Origin: Polaribacter sp. Hel_I_88
GTDB taxonomy: Bacteria; Bacteroidota; Bacteroidia; Flavobacteriales; Flavobacteriaceae
Reading direction: 5' to 3'
Assembly: GCF_000687935.1 (NCBI RefSeq)
Contig: NZ_JHZZ01000001.1
Span: 2,986,001 to 3,050,000, forward strand
DNA length: 64,000 bases
A model generated the notes under the pieces. That model saw only the letters and a program-made list of their open reading frames with translations. It did not search any database and was not told the origin of the DNA. The position numbers and the translations under genes were made by a program. Below, one piece after another: positions 55,079-61,159 of this stretch. How positions within the stretch are numbered: the stretch's first letter is position 1; every line of letters begins with the position of its first letter.

Positions 55079-56527
55079 TTAATTTTTGCCTCTAGTTCTA
55101 GAGTAACCAAATAAACGTTTTTGTTTAATGGTTTCTGCAATACCTTCTGGTAACATTTCTTCCCAACCTTTTTCACCATCCATAATCATTTTTAAAACGG
55201 TTCTAGAAAAAATATCCAAACTATTTTTATCAAAATCTTTAATATCTACAAGTCTACCATTATTATTAAAAAACTTATACAATTCCTTAACTCTTGGGTG
55301 TACTTTTAAGTTGGTGCTGTTTATGTATTCATCAGCTTCTTGATCATGATAAGGATACATATAAACTTTTAAATCTCTGTGGAATAATTTACCAAAGGCT
55401 TCTAAAATACCACCACTTAAATCTCGATAGTATTTTTCTTCAAAAATTTGAATTAAATTGTAAACGCCCATAGCCAAAGCCATTCTTTCTTTGGTGAATT
55501 CGCTAAAATACTCTACCAATTTATAATATTGTTGAAAGCTGGTAATCATTACATTTTGTCCTAAAGAACATAGTAATTCTGCTCTGTCTAAAAAGTCTCT
55601 TTCATTAATTTTACCCTCTGCAGTTAAATTACTTAACGTAATTTCAAAAATAACTTGTGTTTTTTCCTCCTTTACTTTTGTTTCGTTTAAAAACATTTTT
55701 TTGGATTGTTCAAACATATCCATGTTTACTTTTGTAACAGGCCTAAAACTGCCACGTAAAGCTAAAATGTTTTTTTTGTAAAGTACTTGAGCAGGTAATA
55801 AGTTGTTTCCATCAGGTCCAAACATAACTGCGTTTGTCATGCCGTTTTTAAGGAGTTGTAAACTCATCAATCTGTTATCAACATACATAAAACGTGGCCC
55901 AGAGAAATTAATCATATCAATTTCTAGCTGATGATTTCCTAAGTTATCGTAAAAAGATTTTACCAATTCTTTAGGGTTATCATTTAAATAAAAAGCACCA
56001 TAAATTAAGTTTACACCCAAAATACCAAGCGTTTCCTGTTGCAAACGAGCATCTGTTTCTTTAAAACGTAAGTGCAAAACAATTTCATTATAACCTTCTA
56101 AAGGATCTAATTGAAAACGAATTCCAACCCAACCATGGCCTTTAAATTTTCTTGCAAAATCGATTGTTGTAACTGTATTTGCGTAACTAAAAAATAATTT
56201 ATCAGGATGTTTTTGTCTGCTTAACCTGTCTTCAATCAAGTCAATTTCATGACGTAACATGGTTTGCAAACGAGGTTGAGTTACATAACGTTTGTCTTCT
56301 TCCATTCCATAAATGGCGTCAGAGAAATCTTTATCATAAGCACTCATTGCTTTTGCAATAGTTCCAGAAGCAGCTCCAGATCTAAAGAAATTACGCGCAG
56401 TTTCTTGTCCTGCTCCAATTTCTGCAAAAGTTCCGTAAATATCTGTGTTTAAATTTATTCTTAATGCTTTACTTTTAGTAGTGGGTACACTACTAATTTC
56501 TTGATCTCCTCTTAAAGAAATTGCCAT
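55079..56527 (-). CDS. conserved flavobacterial protein of unknown function, 482 aa
   Basis: A 482-aa soluble protein without signal peptide, beginning MAISLRGDQEISSVPTTKSK. Notable segments are NLNTDIYGTFAEIGAGQETARNFF, HEIDLIEDRLSRQKHPDKLFFSYANTVTTIDFARK, GWVGIRFQLDPL and FSGPRFMYVDNRLMSLQLLKNGMTNAVMF. I recall the same N-terminus in other Bacteroidota proteins, with unhelpful names; there is no recognisable enzyme motif. It is transcribed toward the sigma factor gene after a gap of 53 bases, so a link is possible. Confidence 0.8.
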   Translation of the reverse strand: MAISLRGDQEISSVPTTKSKALRINLNTDIYGTFAEIGAGQETARNFFRSGAASGTIAKAMSAYDKDFSDAIYGMEEDKRYVTQPRLQTMLRHEIDLIEDRLSRQKHPDKLFFSYANTVTTIDFARKFKGHGWVGIRFQLDPLEGYNEIVLHLRFKETDARLQQETLGILGVNLIYGAFYLNDNPKELVKSFYDNLGNHQLEIDMINFSGPRFMYVDNRLMSLQLLKNGMTNAVMFGPDGNNLLPAQVLYKKNILALRGSFRPVTKVNMDMFEQSKKMFLNETKVKEEKTQVIFEITLSNLTAEGKINERDFLDRAELLCSLGQNVMITSFQQYYKLVEYFSEFTKERMALAMGVYNLIQIFEEKYYRDLSGGILEAFGKLFHRDLKVYMYPYHDQEADEYINSTNLKVHPRVKELYKFFNNNGRLVDIKDFDKNSLDIFSRTVLKMIMDGEKGWEEMLPEGIAETIKQKRLFGYSRTRGKN

Positions 56528-56604: not shown

Positions 56605-57387
56605 ATGAATACTGATAAAAAACTGTTAACGATTACTTTTTTAGGAACAGGAACCTCACAAGGCATTCCAATGATTGCTAGTAAAGATCCTGTTTGTTTG
56701 TCAAAAGACATAAAAGACAAACGTTTAAGATCTTCTATTTTAATTTCTTGGGACGATGTAACATACACCATAGATTGTGGCCCAGATTTTAGACAGCAAA
56801 TGTTACGTGAAAATGTAGCGCTAATAAATGGCGTTTTTTTTACGCACGAACATTCAGATCACACAGCTGGGATTGACGATTTAAGACCTTATTGCTACAA
56901 AATAGGAGAGATGCCTATTTATCTAAATCAAAGAACTTTAGTTAGTTTGGAAAAACGATTTGAATATATTTTTTGCAAAGAAAATAGATATTCAGGAGCG
57001 CCAAGTGTGTGCCCAAATATTGTAGATGAAAACGCTTTTTACGTGGATGATTTAAAGGTAACTCCTATAGAAGTTATGCACGGAAATTTGCCAGTTACAG
57101 GCTATAGATTTCAAGATTTTGCGTATTTAACAGATGTTAAAAGTATTGAGAGTTCAGAAAAAGACAAGCTTAAAAATTTAGATGTTTTGGTTGTAAATGC
57201 TTTAAGAATTGAAGAACATCCCACGCATTTTAATTTACAAGAAGCCTTAAATTTTATAGAAGAATTGCAGCCTAAAAAAGCATATTTTACGCATATAAGC
57301 CATAAATTAGGTTTTCATGAACAGGTTACTAAAAATTTACCAAAAAATGTTTTTTTAGCTTTTGATGGTTTAAAAATTATTGTATAG
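56605..57387 (+). CDS. MBL-fold metallohydrolase, PhnP-like
   Basis: A 260-aa metallo-beta-lactamase-fold protein. It begins with ITFLGTGTSQGIP. The metal-binding motif HEHSDHTAGIDDLRP (HxHxDH) is present, with further His ligands in EVMHGNLPVTGYRF and AYFTHISHKLGFHE. It is likely a phosphodiesterase or cyclic phosphate hydrolase of the PhnP group; the substrate is unknown. It is upstream of the GTPase cluster on the same strand but separated by a promoter, so probably a separate unit. Confidence 0.88.
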   Translation: MNTDKKLLTITFLGTGTSQGIPMIASKDPVCLSKDIKDKRLRSSILISWDDVTYTIDCGPDFRQQMLRENVALINGVFFTHEHSDHTAGIDDLRPYCYKIGEMPIYLNQRTLVSLEKRFEYIFCKENRYSGAPSVCPNIVDENAFYVDDLKVTPIEVMHGNLPVTGYRFQDFAYLTDVKSIESSEKDKLKNLDVLVVNALRIEEHPTHFNLQEALNFIEELQPKKAYFTHISHKLGFHEQVTKNLPKNVFLAFDGLKIIV

Positions 57388-57411: not shown

Positions 57412-57419
57412 TATATTTG
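57412..57419 (+). promoter_or_regulatory. -7 promoter box of the GTPase-kinase cluster
   Basis: TATATTTG matches TAnnTTTG, 77 bases before the first ATG at 57497, in the only sizeable gap upstream of the four tightly packed genes. Confidence 0.5.
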
Positions 57420-57496: not shown

Positions 57497-57850
57497 ATGA
57501 CAAAAAATTCCGAAGAAAATAATGAACCAGCTTCTAACCAGCAAGTTGATTCTAGAATTGCAGCAGTAAGAGACCTGATATTTGGAGAAAATATCCAAAA
57601 ATACGATTCTGAAATTGCAGATGTTTACGATAAAATAAACATACTTCAAGAAAAAAATGCCAAAGCATTAGCTGATGCAGTAGCCAATATCGAAAATAAA
57701 CTAGCTGATTTAGAAAGTTTAGTAGATCATAGGTTTCAAGATATGACCGATGATTTAGATAAAAAATTGGCAGATTTAGATGATGAAAAAGCTGACAGAA
57801 GAAAATTAGGAAAAGCTTTAGAGAAAATTGCACAGATGTTGCAAGAATAA
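57497..57850 (+). CDS. coiled-coil protein, first gene of the small-GTPase cluster
   Basis: A 117-aa soluble protein. A conserved-looking head, DSRIAAVRDLIFGENIQKYDSEI (cited by its core RDLIFGENIQKY, about residues 25-36), is followed by a long heptad pattern (residues 40-110: DKINILQEKNAKALADAV, ENKLADLESLVDHRF, DKKLADLDDEKAD). It ends one base before the next gene. No catalytic motif. It is probably a structural or adaptor partner of the following roadblock-like protein and GTPase; I recall similar heads in cyanobacterial and other phyla's clusters, but this was not searched. Confidence 0.75.
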   Translation: MTKNSEENNEPASNQQVDSRIAAVRDLIFGENIQKYDSEIADVYDKINILQEKNAKALADAVANIENKLADLESLVDHRFQDMTDDLDKKLADLDDEKADRRKLGKALEKIAQMLQE

Positions 57851-58666
57851 ATGGAAAACCTACCTGTAGATCATAAAAAAGAAAATCGATTTGAACTACT
57901 AAAAGAACTTTTATTAACAGAAGACAGAAAAGAATTTGAATCTTTAAGAAATGAATTTTTAAAGAAAGAGGATTTTAAAAATGAGGTTAAACCTGTTATA
58001 GATAACAAAATTGACGATTTAAAAGATAATTTTTCTGATTATTTTGGCGATCAAGTTACGCAAGCTATAAAAGTTCAAATTAGAGAATCTCAAGACGAAG
58101 TCGTAGAAGCTCTTTACCCAATTATGGGTAAATTGATTCAGAAATTTATTGTCGCAGAAATTACAAAACTTTCAGATACCATTAATAAAACTATCAACGA
58201 TAAATTCTCATTAAAACATATTTTAAAAAGATTATTTAAAGGAAAAAAAACAGATGCAGAAGATGTTTTACAAACCGTTTTTGCAGCAACCATAGAAGAA
58301 GTTTTTGTGATTGAAGAAAACTCAGGTTTGTTAATTGGTAGTTATTCAAGAGGTAATATTGCAGATAAAGACATGATTTCTGGAATGTTAACCGCAATTA
58401 AATCTTTTGCTGAAGATGCCTTTTCTAAGCAAGGTCAAGATTTAGAAGATATTAAATTTGAAACTTTTCAGTTATCCATGTATAACTTTAAATCGATATA
58501 TATTGCCACTGCAACTTCTGGCGTTATTACTTCTGAATTCAAAGAAGAATTGTCAGACAACTTAAACACTTTAGCAGAAAAAATTTTACGAGATAGAACT
58601 TATTTATCAGATGAAATAAGGCTAAATGCTTTAATCGAAAACATTTTAATAAAAGCCCCAGCATAA
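57851..58666 (+). CDS. roadblock/longin-like signalling protein
   Basis: A 271-aa soluble protein. The first part (about 1-150) is helical with acidic and Lys-rich stretches, including an EALYPIMGKLIQKFIVAEITKL region. The last part (about 165-265) has the feel of a roadblock/longin fold: VFVIEENSGLLIGSYS, IADKDMISGMLTAIKSFAEDAF, then paired strands FQLSMYNFKSIYIATATSGVI. Larger relatives in other phyla that I recall carry a C-terminal OmpA domain, absent here. It follows the coiled-coil gene with no gap and precedes the GTPase by 13 bases; roadblock proteins commonly act as regulators of Ras-like GTPases. Confidence 0.72.
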   Translation: MENLPVDHKKENRFELLKELLLTEDRKEFESLRNEFLKKEDFKNEVKPVIDNKIDDLKDNFSDYFGDQVTQAIKVQIRESQDEVVEALYPIMGKLIQKFIVAEITKLSDTINKTINDKFSLKHILKRLFKGKKTDAEDVLQTVFAATIEEVFVIEENSGLLIGSYSRGNIADKDMISGMLTAIKSFAEDAFSKQGQDLEDIKFETFQLSMYNFKSIYIATATSGVITSEFKEELSDNLNTLAEKILRDRTYLSDEIRLNALIENILIKAPA

Positions 58667-58679
58667 AACTCTTTTCAAT

Positions 58680-59165
58680 ATGATTGCAAAAAAAGTACTT
58701 CTTGTTGGTAATTTTGGTGTTGGTAAAACATCTTTAATAAGGCAATTTGTTTTAAACGAATTTTCTGAAGATTATATTAGTACCATTGGAGTTCGAGTAA
58801 GTACAAAAATTGTAAGTTTAAATGGTGAGCAAATTAAACTGTTAATTTGGGATGTTGCTGGTACAAAAGATGATGAAAAAGTACCAAAAGCTTATTTTTT
58901 AGGAGCCAGTGCTGCTATGTATGTGTTCGATTTAAATAGAGAGGAAACCTATTTAAATTTAAAAAATCAATTGGAAGTCGTTAAACAATTATCGGGTTTA
59001 AAAGAAATTTTAGTAGTTGGTAATAAAAAAGATTTGTTAACAGCTAACGAAATAGATCAAGTTAAAAAAATAATTGAAATTCCTGTAGATTTAATTACCA
59101 GTGCAAAAGAAAACGAAAATGTAGAAGATGCTTTTACAATTCTTGCCAAACAATCTCTAAAATAA
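58680..59165 (+). CDS. Rab/Ras-like small GTPase
   Basis: A 161-aa GTPase domain only. G1 GNFGVGKT (10-17), a switch-I Thr in EDYISTIGV, G3 WDVAG (57-61), G4 NKKD (115-118) and G5 TSAKEN are all present. The residue after DVAG is Thr62 where Ras has Gln61, so intrinsic GTP hydrolysis may be slow and dependent on a partner. There is no C-terminal Cys for lipid attachment. It is similar to the prokaryotic Ras-like groups of unknown function. It lies between the roadblock-like protein and a histidine kinase, each 13 or 5 bases away, so it is part of one transcript. Confidence 0.92.
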   Translation: MIAKKVLLVGNFGVGKTSLIRQFVLNEFSEDYISTIGVRVSTKIVSLNGEQIKLLIWDVAGTKDDEKVPKAYFLGASAAMYVFDLNREETYLNLKNQLEVVKQLSGLKEILVVGNKKDLLTANEIDQVKKIIEIPVDLITSAKENENVEDAFTILAKQSLK

Positions 59166-59170
59166 AACTT

Positions 59171-60691
59171 TTGACGCCAGCTAAAATTGAAAATGTTTTT
59201 TTAGAAGTAATTACCAACCAACAAGGTATTATTAAAAACATACTTGCTGGTAAATTTGCTATTGAAGAGTTTGTTGTTGATACTTCAATTTTTGAAACTT
59301 GCCCATTTTTATTCGGAACTTTAGAGTTGCTTCCAGAAAAAGAGTCTTTTTTGATGGAAGGAATGGTGATCACTTCAAAAAATAAAGAATACAATACAGA
59401 TGTAGAATTGTTTAAAGATGGTGAAGAAATTACAATTTTACTACATAATAGAACAAGTGTTTATAAAGTTATTACTGAGTTAAATCAAAATAGGAATGAT
59501 TTATTTTTTATGAAAAGAGAAATTTCAGAGAAAAATAAAGAGTTGGCTATTTTAAGAAAAGCATCAGACAAAGCAAACGAAGAAAAGTCACGTTTTTTGG
59601 CAATTATGAGTCATGAAGTTCGGAATCCTTTAAACACCATTTTAGGATATACCAACATGATTGCTGAAGAAAATTTGAGCGATAAAGTTAGAGAATATGT
59701 GAGCTATTTAGCGTTTTCTGGTAAAAACTTAAAAGTTATTGTAGATGATATTTTAGATTTATCCAGAATTGAAGCTGGTAAATTAGAGTTGGCTTTAGAG
59801 GAAATTAACGTGAATAAAATTGTACAAAGTAATTTTATCAATTTTAAAAATCAGCATACAAACGATTTTGTTGCTTTAGAAATTTCTACTTCAACTAAAA
59901 TTCCAGCAACTTTAATAGGAGATGGAGTTAGAGTGAATCAAATTTTGGCGAATTTGATGAATAATGCACTTAAATTTACCAAAGAAGGTAAAGTTTCTGT
60001 TCAAACAGAAATTATATCAGAAAATGAAAAATCAGCTGAAATTAGATTCAAAATTACAGACACAGGCAGAGGAATGACTGATGAACAAACTGCAAAGATT
60101 TTTGAGGAATATAGGCAAACAGAATTAGATGATAACCGAGTTTTTGGGGGTGCAGGTTTAGGGTTATCAATTGTAAAACGTTTGGTGGGTGCTATGAATG
60201 GCTCTATAACTGTAGCAAGTAAATTGAATGTGGGCACAACTTTTTATGTGGAAATTCCGTTTAAAAAGGTTCTAAATACAGTTAAGAAGCCAATTACTGA
60301 AGTTGAAAAATCAACCAAAAAAAGTTTACAAGGAAAACGAATTTTATTGGCAGATGATGATTTGTTGAATCAAAAAATAACTTCACATATTTTAAATAAA
60401 GAAGAAGTAATTATAACTGTTGCAAAAAATGGCTTAGAAGCCTTAGAAATATTAAACGTACAAGATTTTGATCTTGCTATTTTAGATATTAACATGCCAG
60501 AAATAACAGGAGATACTTTAATTCAACAAAAAGCAACTTTTAAGAAAAACAATCAAATCCCGTTTTTAGCTTTAACAGGAAATGCCACACAAGAACACAA
60601 AGAAAATTATTTAAAAATTGGTTTTACAGATGTTATTTTTAAACCTTATAAGTTTGATGAATTGATTGGGAAAATTGAAGGGTGTTTGTAG
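59171..60691 (+). CDS. hybrid sensor histidine kinase / response regulator
   Basis: A 506-aa soluble two-component protein. N-terminal residues 1-120 form a PAS-like sensor without transmembrane segments. A coiled coil leads to a HisKA domain with phosphoacceptor His148 in MSHEVRNPLNTIL, then a HATPase domain (NQILANLMNNALKF, DTGRGMT, GGAGLGLSIVKR), and a receiver domain (about 382-506) with phosphoacceptor Asp439 in LAILDINMPEITG and Lys in VIFKPYKF. The start is a TTG, 5 bases after the GTPase stop. As the last gene of the cluster it is the likely output or input partner of the GTPase. Confidence 0.93.
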   Translation: MTPAKIENVFLEVITNQQGIIKNILAGKFAIEEFVVDTSIFETCPFLFGTLELLPEKESFLMEGMVITSKNKEYNTDVELFKDGEEITILLHNRTSVYKVITELNQNRNDLFFMKREISEKNKELAILRKASDKANEEKSRFLAIMSHEVRNPLNTILGYTNMIAEENLSDKVREYVSYLAFSGKNLKVIVDDILDLSRIEAGKLELALEEINVNKIVQSNFINFKNQHTNDFVALEISTSTKIPATLIGDGVRVNQILANLMNNALKFTKEGKVSVQTEIISENEKSAEIRFKITDTGRGMTDEQTAKIFEEYRQTELDDNRVFGGAGLGLSIVKRLVGAMNGSITVASKLNVGTTFYVEIPFKKVLNTVKKPITEVEKSTKKSLQGKRILLADDDLLNQKITSHILNKEEVIITVAKNGLEALEILNVQDFDLAILDINMPEITGDTLIQQKATFKKNNQIPFLALTGNATQEHKENYLKIGFTDVIFKPYKFDELIGKIEGCL

Positions 60692-60841: not shown

Positions 60842-61159
60842 TTATTTCGTTCGTTTTATTTTTAATGGATATTGTCGAGTATCAAAAACATCAGCGATTT
60901 TAATAAGTCCATTTTCAATATCTACTGAATAGATTATGTTATAGTTTGTATAAATTATATATCTGTACTCAGTTTTTCGTTCTTTAAGTAATTGCTCTTC
61001 TTGACCAATAAAAGATAAGTTTATTAATTTTTTTGGTTCATTAATGATTCCTTTAGTGATTTTTTTTGCTAATCTCTCGTTAACTTCTTTTTTATAATAT
61101 TCGTAAATTTTGTCAAGTTCAGTTTCTGCAAATTCAGACCAAATAATTTCAAATGTCAT
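60842..61159 (-). CDS. RelE/ParE-type toxin
   Basis: A 105-aa protein of the RelE/ParE fold: MTFEIIWSEFAETELDKIYEYYKKEVNERLAKKI at the N-terminus is described by its core SEFAETELDKIYEYY, then YRYIIYTNYNIIYSVD and IKIADVFDTRQYPLKI. It is encoded after its antitoxin with a 1-base overlap (shared ATG/TAA junction). It probably cleaves mRNA at the ribosome or inhibits gyrase; which one cannot be told from this sequence. Confidence 0.85.
   Translation of the reverse strand: MTFEIIWSEFAETELDKIYEYYKKEVNERLAKKITKGIINEPKKLINLSFIGQEEQLLKERKTEYRYIIYTNYNIIYSVDIENGLIKIADVFDTRQYPLKIKRTK

Follow-up and report, generated by a model that had tools for sequence, protein, structure and literature searches.

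A four-gene unit of Polaribacter sp. Hel_I_88 that matches the Group 1 Rup neighborhood: a Rab-like GTPase beside a predicted longin/roadblock-class protein and a hybrid histidine kinase

The closest described counterpart of the locus analyzed here is the Group 1 Rup neighborhood, set out by Wuichet and Søgaard-Andersen in 2014 with Bacteroidetes among its holders; its authors proposed a signaling system analogous to the conservon, diguanylate cyclases and phosphodiesterases (DGC/PDE) are among its outputs, and no Rup protein had been experimentally characterized as of that year (PMC4316618). Among prokaryotic groups, Rup GTPases are described as standing nearest to eukaryotic Rab/Ras/Rho/Ran (PMC4915359). 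The locus lies in a 64,000-nucleotide stretch of Polaribacter sp. Hel_I_88 (contig NZ_JHZZ01000001.1, positions 2,986,001 to 3,050,000; hereafter the window), part of a complete, Polaribacter-type, single-contig genome of 4.0 Mb. It consists of four open reading frames (ORFs) of 117, 271, 161 and 506 amino acids (aa), all on the + strand and separated by 0, 13 and 5 bases (Table 1), which encode a coiled-coil-type protein (cc), a protein with a predicted longin/roadblock-class domain (rb), a Rab-like GTPase (gtp, Rup) and a hybrid histidine kinase (hk). Our preferred reading, to which we give a probability of roughly 0.6, is that the locus is a Group 1 Rup system of a flavobacterium, with a cytoplasmic GTPase switch controlling the hybrid histidine kinase.

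The four-gene set matches Group 1 Rup by described features rather than by GTPase tree placement. Both combine a Rab/Ras-like GTPase lacking the catalytic Gln, a cytoplasmic coiled-coil protein, a conserved protein of unknown domain and an output kinase with an invariant N-terminal Gln (PMC4316618), and every feature examined was found here: the G3 Asp, the absence of a G3 Gln, a coiled-coil neighbor, a conserved-domain protein and the output Gln. We infer that the last of these, Q106 of the window kinase, is the Gln of the published logo. The two differ in that a transmembrane helix and an OmpA domain, reported there as frequent (PMC4316618), are absent from the window protein and present in its distant relatives. 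The first-pass annotation, made from the letters of the window, had known of no described system with exactly this composition; that negative is wrong, as the Group 1 Rup neighborhood was in print by 2014 (PMC4316618) and the conservon is analogous. Its gene layout and gap lengths agree with the ORF coordinates, its GTPase and hybrid histidine kinase identities are confirmed by Pfam, and a hydropathy scan of all four proteins shows no obvious transmembrane segment, in line with its claim that they have none: no 19-residue stretch has a mean hydropathy above 1.35.

The actinobacterial conservon (CvnA-D) is likewise an operon of a histidine kinase, a small GTPase, a roadblock/longin-class protein and a further protein. 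Unlike the present unit, it has an MglA-family GTPase and an MglB-type roadblock, whereas here the G3 Asp (D58) is kept in 86/86 GTPase sequences, Robl_LC7 is not matched, and the kinase is hybrid, with no obvious membrane segment. Conservon identity was ruled out by the GTPase family and the absent MglB-type roadblock match (PF03259). The MglA-MglB pair shares a small GTPase and a partner of the roadblock/longin structural class, but differs in its GTPase family (the G3 Asp is retained here) and in its partner, which here carries a long helical N-terminus and is missed by the roadblock profile.

The four genes are inherited as a unit. Across 97 genomes, the source genome included, the GTPase is present at E 4e-30 or better in 27, of which 25 are congeneric (out of 58 genomes of the genus) and 2 belong to another family; at E 0.001, 41 genomes have matches, and the 14 left out of the strong set have none better than E 1.5e-7, all in open frames of 430 residues or longer. 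These 27 genomes and one other (G087) hold the 271-aa protein; the kinase N-terminal domain is present in all 27 GTPase genomes and in no others, once per genome and at the cluster locus. The order cc-rb-gtp-hk is kept in each of the 24 strong-match genomes of the genus besides the source genome, all 24 checked on short loci, so that the cluster is more than a chance arrangement. The GTPase is found in 62/299 genomes of a same-family sample at E 1e-12 and in 14/395 of a phylum sample, and within the phylum the cluster is conserved beyond its own family and class. The genes thus form a conserved unit, which supports this part of the first-pass annotation, and orthologous GTPases standing without these neighbors in most genomes, a pattern it had named as a refutation, were not what the survey returned.

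Longer loci were fetched for 78 of the 99 other strong-match genomes (12/12 outside the order, 2/2 of family f13, 20/24 same-genus and 44/61 same-family). Profiles built for this work detect the GTPase in all 81 such loci (window included), rb in 76, cc in 75 and the kinase domain in 69. Under a 1.5-kb same-strand limit, by which divergent pairs are missed and so are cc genes lying past a long rb, the counts are 67/81 for cc, 72/81 for rb and 69/81 for the kinase N-terminal domain. Nine loci hold no 271-aa gene within that limit; at L116, L120, L124 and L125 the gene is nearby on the opposite strand, and at the remaining five it is on another contig. The reverse search, started from the 271-aa protein, drew on the best 80 of at least 549 related stretches, of which 79 remained because no complete gene was called in L210; the neighbor is the GTPase at 78/79, the coiled-coil gene at 75/79 and the kinase domain at 73/79, some of these loci ending at a contig edge. 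The GTPase-based and 271-aa-based locus sets partly overlap. That the four genes are merely co-transcribed and have separate functions is very improbable: their patchy presence (25/58 same-genus genomes, some incomplete) would fit, but co-occurrence across genomes is near all-or-none, and the genes co-duplicate and are conserved across family and class boundaries within the phylum.

The 161-aa protein is, by its sequence, a Rab-like GTPase with a non-canonical active site. It scores 115.7 bits against Pfam Ras vs 49.1 against Arf, and of 895 matches to PDB sequences, 57 among the 60 matches listed are named Rab, Sec4 or Ypt1. No other protein of the genome matches Pfam Ras strongly; the four remaining matches are at about E 1e-6 or worse and lie in frames of at least 304 residues. 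The retained D58 shows that it is not MglA-like. The equivalent of Ras Gln61 is absent, with T62 in its place and Gln in only 3/86 sequences, and the Ras Gly12 position is held by F12, a Phe also in 80 of 86 relatives. Loss of Gln61 and change at Gly12 hinder ordinary hydrolysis under Ras rules, and GTP hydrolysis by Rup should be non-canonical; T62 and F12 therefore lead us to expect a long-lived GTP state or a non-canonical GTPase-activating protein (GAP).

The N-terminus of the kinase is predicted to be a PAS fold with a near-invariant Gln in its exit helix. An AF2 model of residues 1-125 (pLDDT 90) consists of a PAS fold (residues 10-93) and a long exit helix (residues 95-123) and has PAS structures among its matches; a sequence search with the N-terminal domain returned no PAS match, so that the PAS fold is seen in the model only. 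HisKA, HATPase_c and receiver domains follow. The most conserved residues include D77, Y98, Q106 and N109, the last two sitting in the exit helix. Q106 is present in 77/79 domains, the two exceptions being short kinase-less remnants, and in 143/143 full-length kinases, a set that includes copies across overlapping locus sets. At five loci (L081, L098, L207, L220, L221), a second gene of hybrid-kinase size with the same PAS domain directly follows the first.

The conserved Gln opens another division of labor, in which the GTPase would read the longin protein as an effector or scaffold adaptor, the latter being neither its guanine-nucleotide exchange factor (GEF) nor its GAP, while Q106 of the kinase PAS/exit helix supplies the GAP function. 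The GTPase has no Gln61 equivalent in 83/86 sequences and the partner Gln is near-invariant, many longins in the structure match list are adaptors or SNAREs rather than GEFs, and the 2014 authors speculated on a GAP role for the invariant Gln (PMC4316618). Q106 nevertheless lies, in the model, in the exit helix after the PAS core, a position often used for dimer-interface packing and probably an unusual catalytic site. We regard this arrangement as quite unlikely.

The output position is the variable part of the neighborhood. In distant relatives, the outputs are plain kinases, kinases beside NtrC-type sigma54 regulators, and PAS-sigma54 activators. A Q-x-x-[R/N] motif was seen by eye at the corresponding place in 10/11 of the distant outputs listed, the listed part of the eleventh stopping short of the site; in a profile comparison, five of the kinases were not significant and two other outputs had weak scores. 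That the outputs vary in distant relatives while the GTPase stays suggests that the GTPase acts upstream of them. The opposite direction, as proposed for actinobacterial conservons, would have the PAS domain sense a ligand and the kinase pass its state to the longin protein or the GTPase, the latter being the output. In its favor, the unit has the same part types and operon logic as conservons; it contains no separate response regulator gene; and in full-length kinases the phospho-accepting His148 (141/143) and the ATPase Asn265 (143/143) are nearly invariant, whereas the receiver Asp is less conserved (aligned in 104/143, with misalignment possible), as if receiver output counted less. This direction is nonetheless unlikely: other outputs, PAS-sigma54 activators, stand beside the same GTPase family in distant relatives, the window kinase has a receiver of its own, and duplicated units hold kinase-less PAS proteins, the replaceable part being more likely downstream.

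Those duplicated units, nine loci but eight distinct sequence sets, since L130 and L205 are, to judge by length, one contig, have the order cc, rb, GTPase 1, a PAS protein of ∼200 aa, GTPase 2 and the full kinase, with an extra PAS remnant in one set. The ∼200-aa protein keeps the conserved residues but has neither the catalytic His nor room for an ATPase domain. The GTPase 1 copies form one clade (8/8, support 0.999), as do the ∼200-aa PAS proteins (8/8, support 0.84). The GTPase 2 clade (19 tips, support 0.69) includes ten single-GTPase loci, in all of which the gap between rb and the GTPase is at least 90 bases, with a PAS remnant in the gap of three. Long gaps and PAS remnants are as expected after loss of GTPase copy 1; L220, L221 and L222, outside the clade, have long gaps too. 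As GTPase 1 is accompanied by a kinase-less PAS protein, the duplicating unit is a GTPase plus a PAS protein without kinase activity. GTPase and PAS protein thus look like a working pair, and the kinase-less copies are candidates for the minimal GTPase partner.

For the 271-aa protein, a fold of the longin/roadblock class is predicted, in partial agreement with the first-pass annotation, which had called it roadblock/longin-like: the class appears in the AF2 model, whereas Pfam roadblock Robl_LC7 (PF03259) has 0 matches in the genome at E 0.001 in a search that was positive in 3/14 control genomes. The model, built from 76 sequences, has a mean pLDDT of 68.2 and a pTM of 0.48; its N-terminal part consists of long helices of low confidence, and ten-residue pLDDT means are 66-92 over residues 141-270. 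The C-terminal elements (E147-155, E161-166, H173-190, E200-203, E206-213, E216-223, H228-247, H255-266) run strand, strand, helix, three strands, helix, helix, which is the order of a longin with its C-terminal extra helix; in longins, according to a 2024 paper, this helix replaces the N-terminal one of roadblocks (PMC10933270). A low-confidence helix (H135-143) precedes the domain, and roadblock is also compatible. In VIA-align, the best match is the TRAPP chain 2j3t_D (Z 13.3, rmsd 2.5, 117 residues), presumably Trs23 from its chain numbering, followed by adaptor sigma subunits and other longins up to Z 12.4, CPLANE/Fuzzy chains up to 11.9 and Mon1-Ccz1 at 10.9; the roadblocks MglB, Ragulator and archaeal proteins reach Z 10.6-11.3 over 101-105 residues. 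Most rows below the top are at Z 10.6-12.4, and most are tied within 1 Z. Longin is preferred because of the best VIA-align row and the coverage of the C-terminal helix, and by topology and one of two structure comparisons the predicted domain is more likely a longin than a roadblock.

Profile searches give a weak signal. In a domain-only Pfam scan of 105 members at E 0.1 or better, the two families matched by most members are Fuz_longin_1 (FUZ/MON1/HPS1, 15) and Intu_longin_1 (INTU/CCZ1/HPS4, 7), with a best E of 0.0015; over whole members, Fuz_longin_1 is matched in 1/76 at E 0.01. Genome-wide, PF19031 has 6 matches in 6/25 genomes, 3 of them inside the 271-aa gene (G164, G382, G258) and all below cut-off; PF19031 and PF19036 each also give below-cut-off matches in 2/14 control genomes. 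A longin call from sequence only was rejected; in the search of the PDB with the whole-protein profile, a viral glycoprotein (E 0.016) ranked ahead of a TRAPP BET5 chain (E 0.4). The window protein and nine relatives of ∼600 aa from distant Bacteroidota are recognized by a single profile; in these relatives a hydrophobic segment follows the domain (9/9) and an OmpA domain is present in the 2/2 scanned, whereas the window protein ends after the longin-class domain. A longin-like protein with BON and OmpA domains (L117:3072-4976) adjoins a GTPase and a PAS-sigma54 activator.

In the favored scheme, a cytoplasmic GTPase switch controlling the kinase, the longin protein, probably as a dimer and together with the coiled-coil protein, would serve the GTPase as a platform for nucleotide exchange (or for GAP action). 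In its GTP-bound state, Rup would dock on the dimeric kinase at the PAS/exit helix and switch the autophosphorylation of the kinase, so that the signal would pass from coiled coil and longin to GTPase, kinase and phosphorelay. In distant relatives, the input probably comes from the envelope, because the longin protein there carries the hydrophobic segment and the OmpA domain.

Several points weigh against this scheme. Its contacts and activities are all read from observed gene content, conservation and predicted folds, and its direction from gene content only. Mean-field direct coupling analysis (119 paired loci, effective 77-92 sequences) gave scattered inter-protein scores and no switch-region cluster; its contact signal was rejected as noise, the scores being spread over the proteins. 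Because the receiver Asp aligns in only 104/143 kinases, phosphorelay output may not be general. The fold of the 271-aa protein is assigned from one predicted model of modest overall confidence, and Foldseek gives its top eight places to Ragulator roadblock chains (E 4e-5 to 2e-4) and ranks TRAPP, CPLANE, adaptor and Mon1-Ccz1 chains below these. A domain-only profile against the PDB returned no longin, one unrelated match, and lost BET5; PF19036 has 6 below-cut-off matches in 5/25 genomes, none in the 271-aa gene, in a genome-wide search that may lose weak matches at first pass, so that absence says little. At five loci (2 same-family genomes and 3 of one distant genus), the 271-aa and coiled-coil genes lie on a separate contig where no GTPase was found, and in G087 the two stand together in a genome where the Rup GTPase was not found. 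As the pair is separable in G087 and on these contigs, cc and rb look like one sub-unit and GTPase and output another, and the former may have a role of its own. The G087 locus (L244:5290-7102), a longin-like gene with a 329-aa coiled-coil gene, is a possible GTPase-free version.

The eukaryotic TRAPP, Mon1-Ccz1 and Fuzzy-Inturned complexes likewise pair a Rab-like GTPase with a longin-resembling protein. They differ in being multi-subunit or multi-longin complexes on membranes with no kinase in the module, and the likeness here is one of predicted structure. That the Bacteroidota GTPase and its longin regulator are a true exchange module, related by descent to eukaryotic Rab and TRAPP/Mon1-type regulators and wired to two-component signaling in place of vesicle traffic, is a tentative and on balance doubtful proposal, made less likely by the Foldseek ranking; if true, the eukaryotic Rab-regulator pair would have a bacterial counterpart in a simple, culturable cell. 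Longin/roadblock domains in bacteria generally are already tabulated (PMC4917890), and eukaryotic longins were argued in 2012 to derive from prokaryotic roadblock domains (PMC3521125). A bacterial longin beside a Rab-like GTPase would bear on that origin. Should the conserved partner be a longin regulator of Rab type, marine bacteria from genera with cultured strains would allow tests of how Rab control arose, and a second kind of GTPase-phosphorelay coupling, besides conservons, would be open to dissection.

The composition of the unit is not new; new are the longin/roadblock-class assignment, the PAS fold with Q106, the kinase-less PAS partners and the sigma54 outputs. A literature search found no experimental study of how the gene set works. 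No publication on a longin fold for a Rup-linked protein was found among the papers listed in aimed searches, most subscription literature being outside their reach; the location of the invariant Gln behind a PAS fold, and duplicated GTPases with kinase-less PAS partners, did not turn up in print either, with no search aimed at those two points.

The coordinates of the unit are collected in Table 1. The coiled-coil nature of the 117-aa protein was judged from its sequence and from weak matches to coiled-coil families. The -7 box noted in the first-pass annotation is present as TATATTTG, but it fails as promoter evidence: TANNTTTG occurs 131 times in the window vs 129 expected by chance, and because it is as frequent as chance, TATATTTG by itself is no evidence of a promoter.

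Table 1. Positions of the four genes and of the upstream motif, numbered from the first letter of the window.
Feature	Position	Strand	Description
TATATTTG	57412..57419	+	Possible -7 box; motif frequency not above chance
cc	57497..57850	+	117-aa coiled-coil-type cytoplasmic protein; first gene; ORF; no family above cut-off
rb	57851..58666	+	271 aa; in the AF2 model, residues about 9-118 are helical (low confidence) and about 147-266 form a predicted longin/roadblock-class domain at the C-terminus
Rup	58680..59165	+	161-aa single-domain Rab-like Ras-superfamily GTPase; T62, F12; Pfam Ras E 2e-33
HK	59171..60691	+	506 aa, TTG start; hybrid histidine kinase; Pfam HisKA, HATPase_c, Response_reg

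Upstream of the cluster, a metallo-beta-lactamase-fold protein (56605-57387, +) and a 482-aa protein with no Pfam match at E 1 (55079-56527, -) are both kept in 20/20 same-genus loci searched. Just downstream of the kinase, a 105-aa ORF (60842-61159, -), RelE/ParE-type toxin-like by eye, went unmatched at E 1e-10 when 21 loci of relatives were searched. The esterase-like gene beyond it is retained in 12/21 of the relatives' loci, all 12 of them same-genus.

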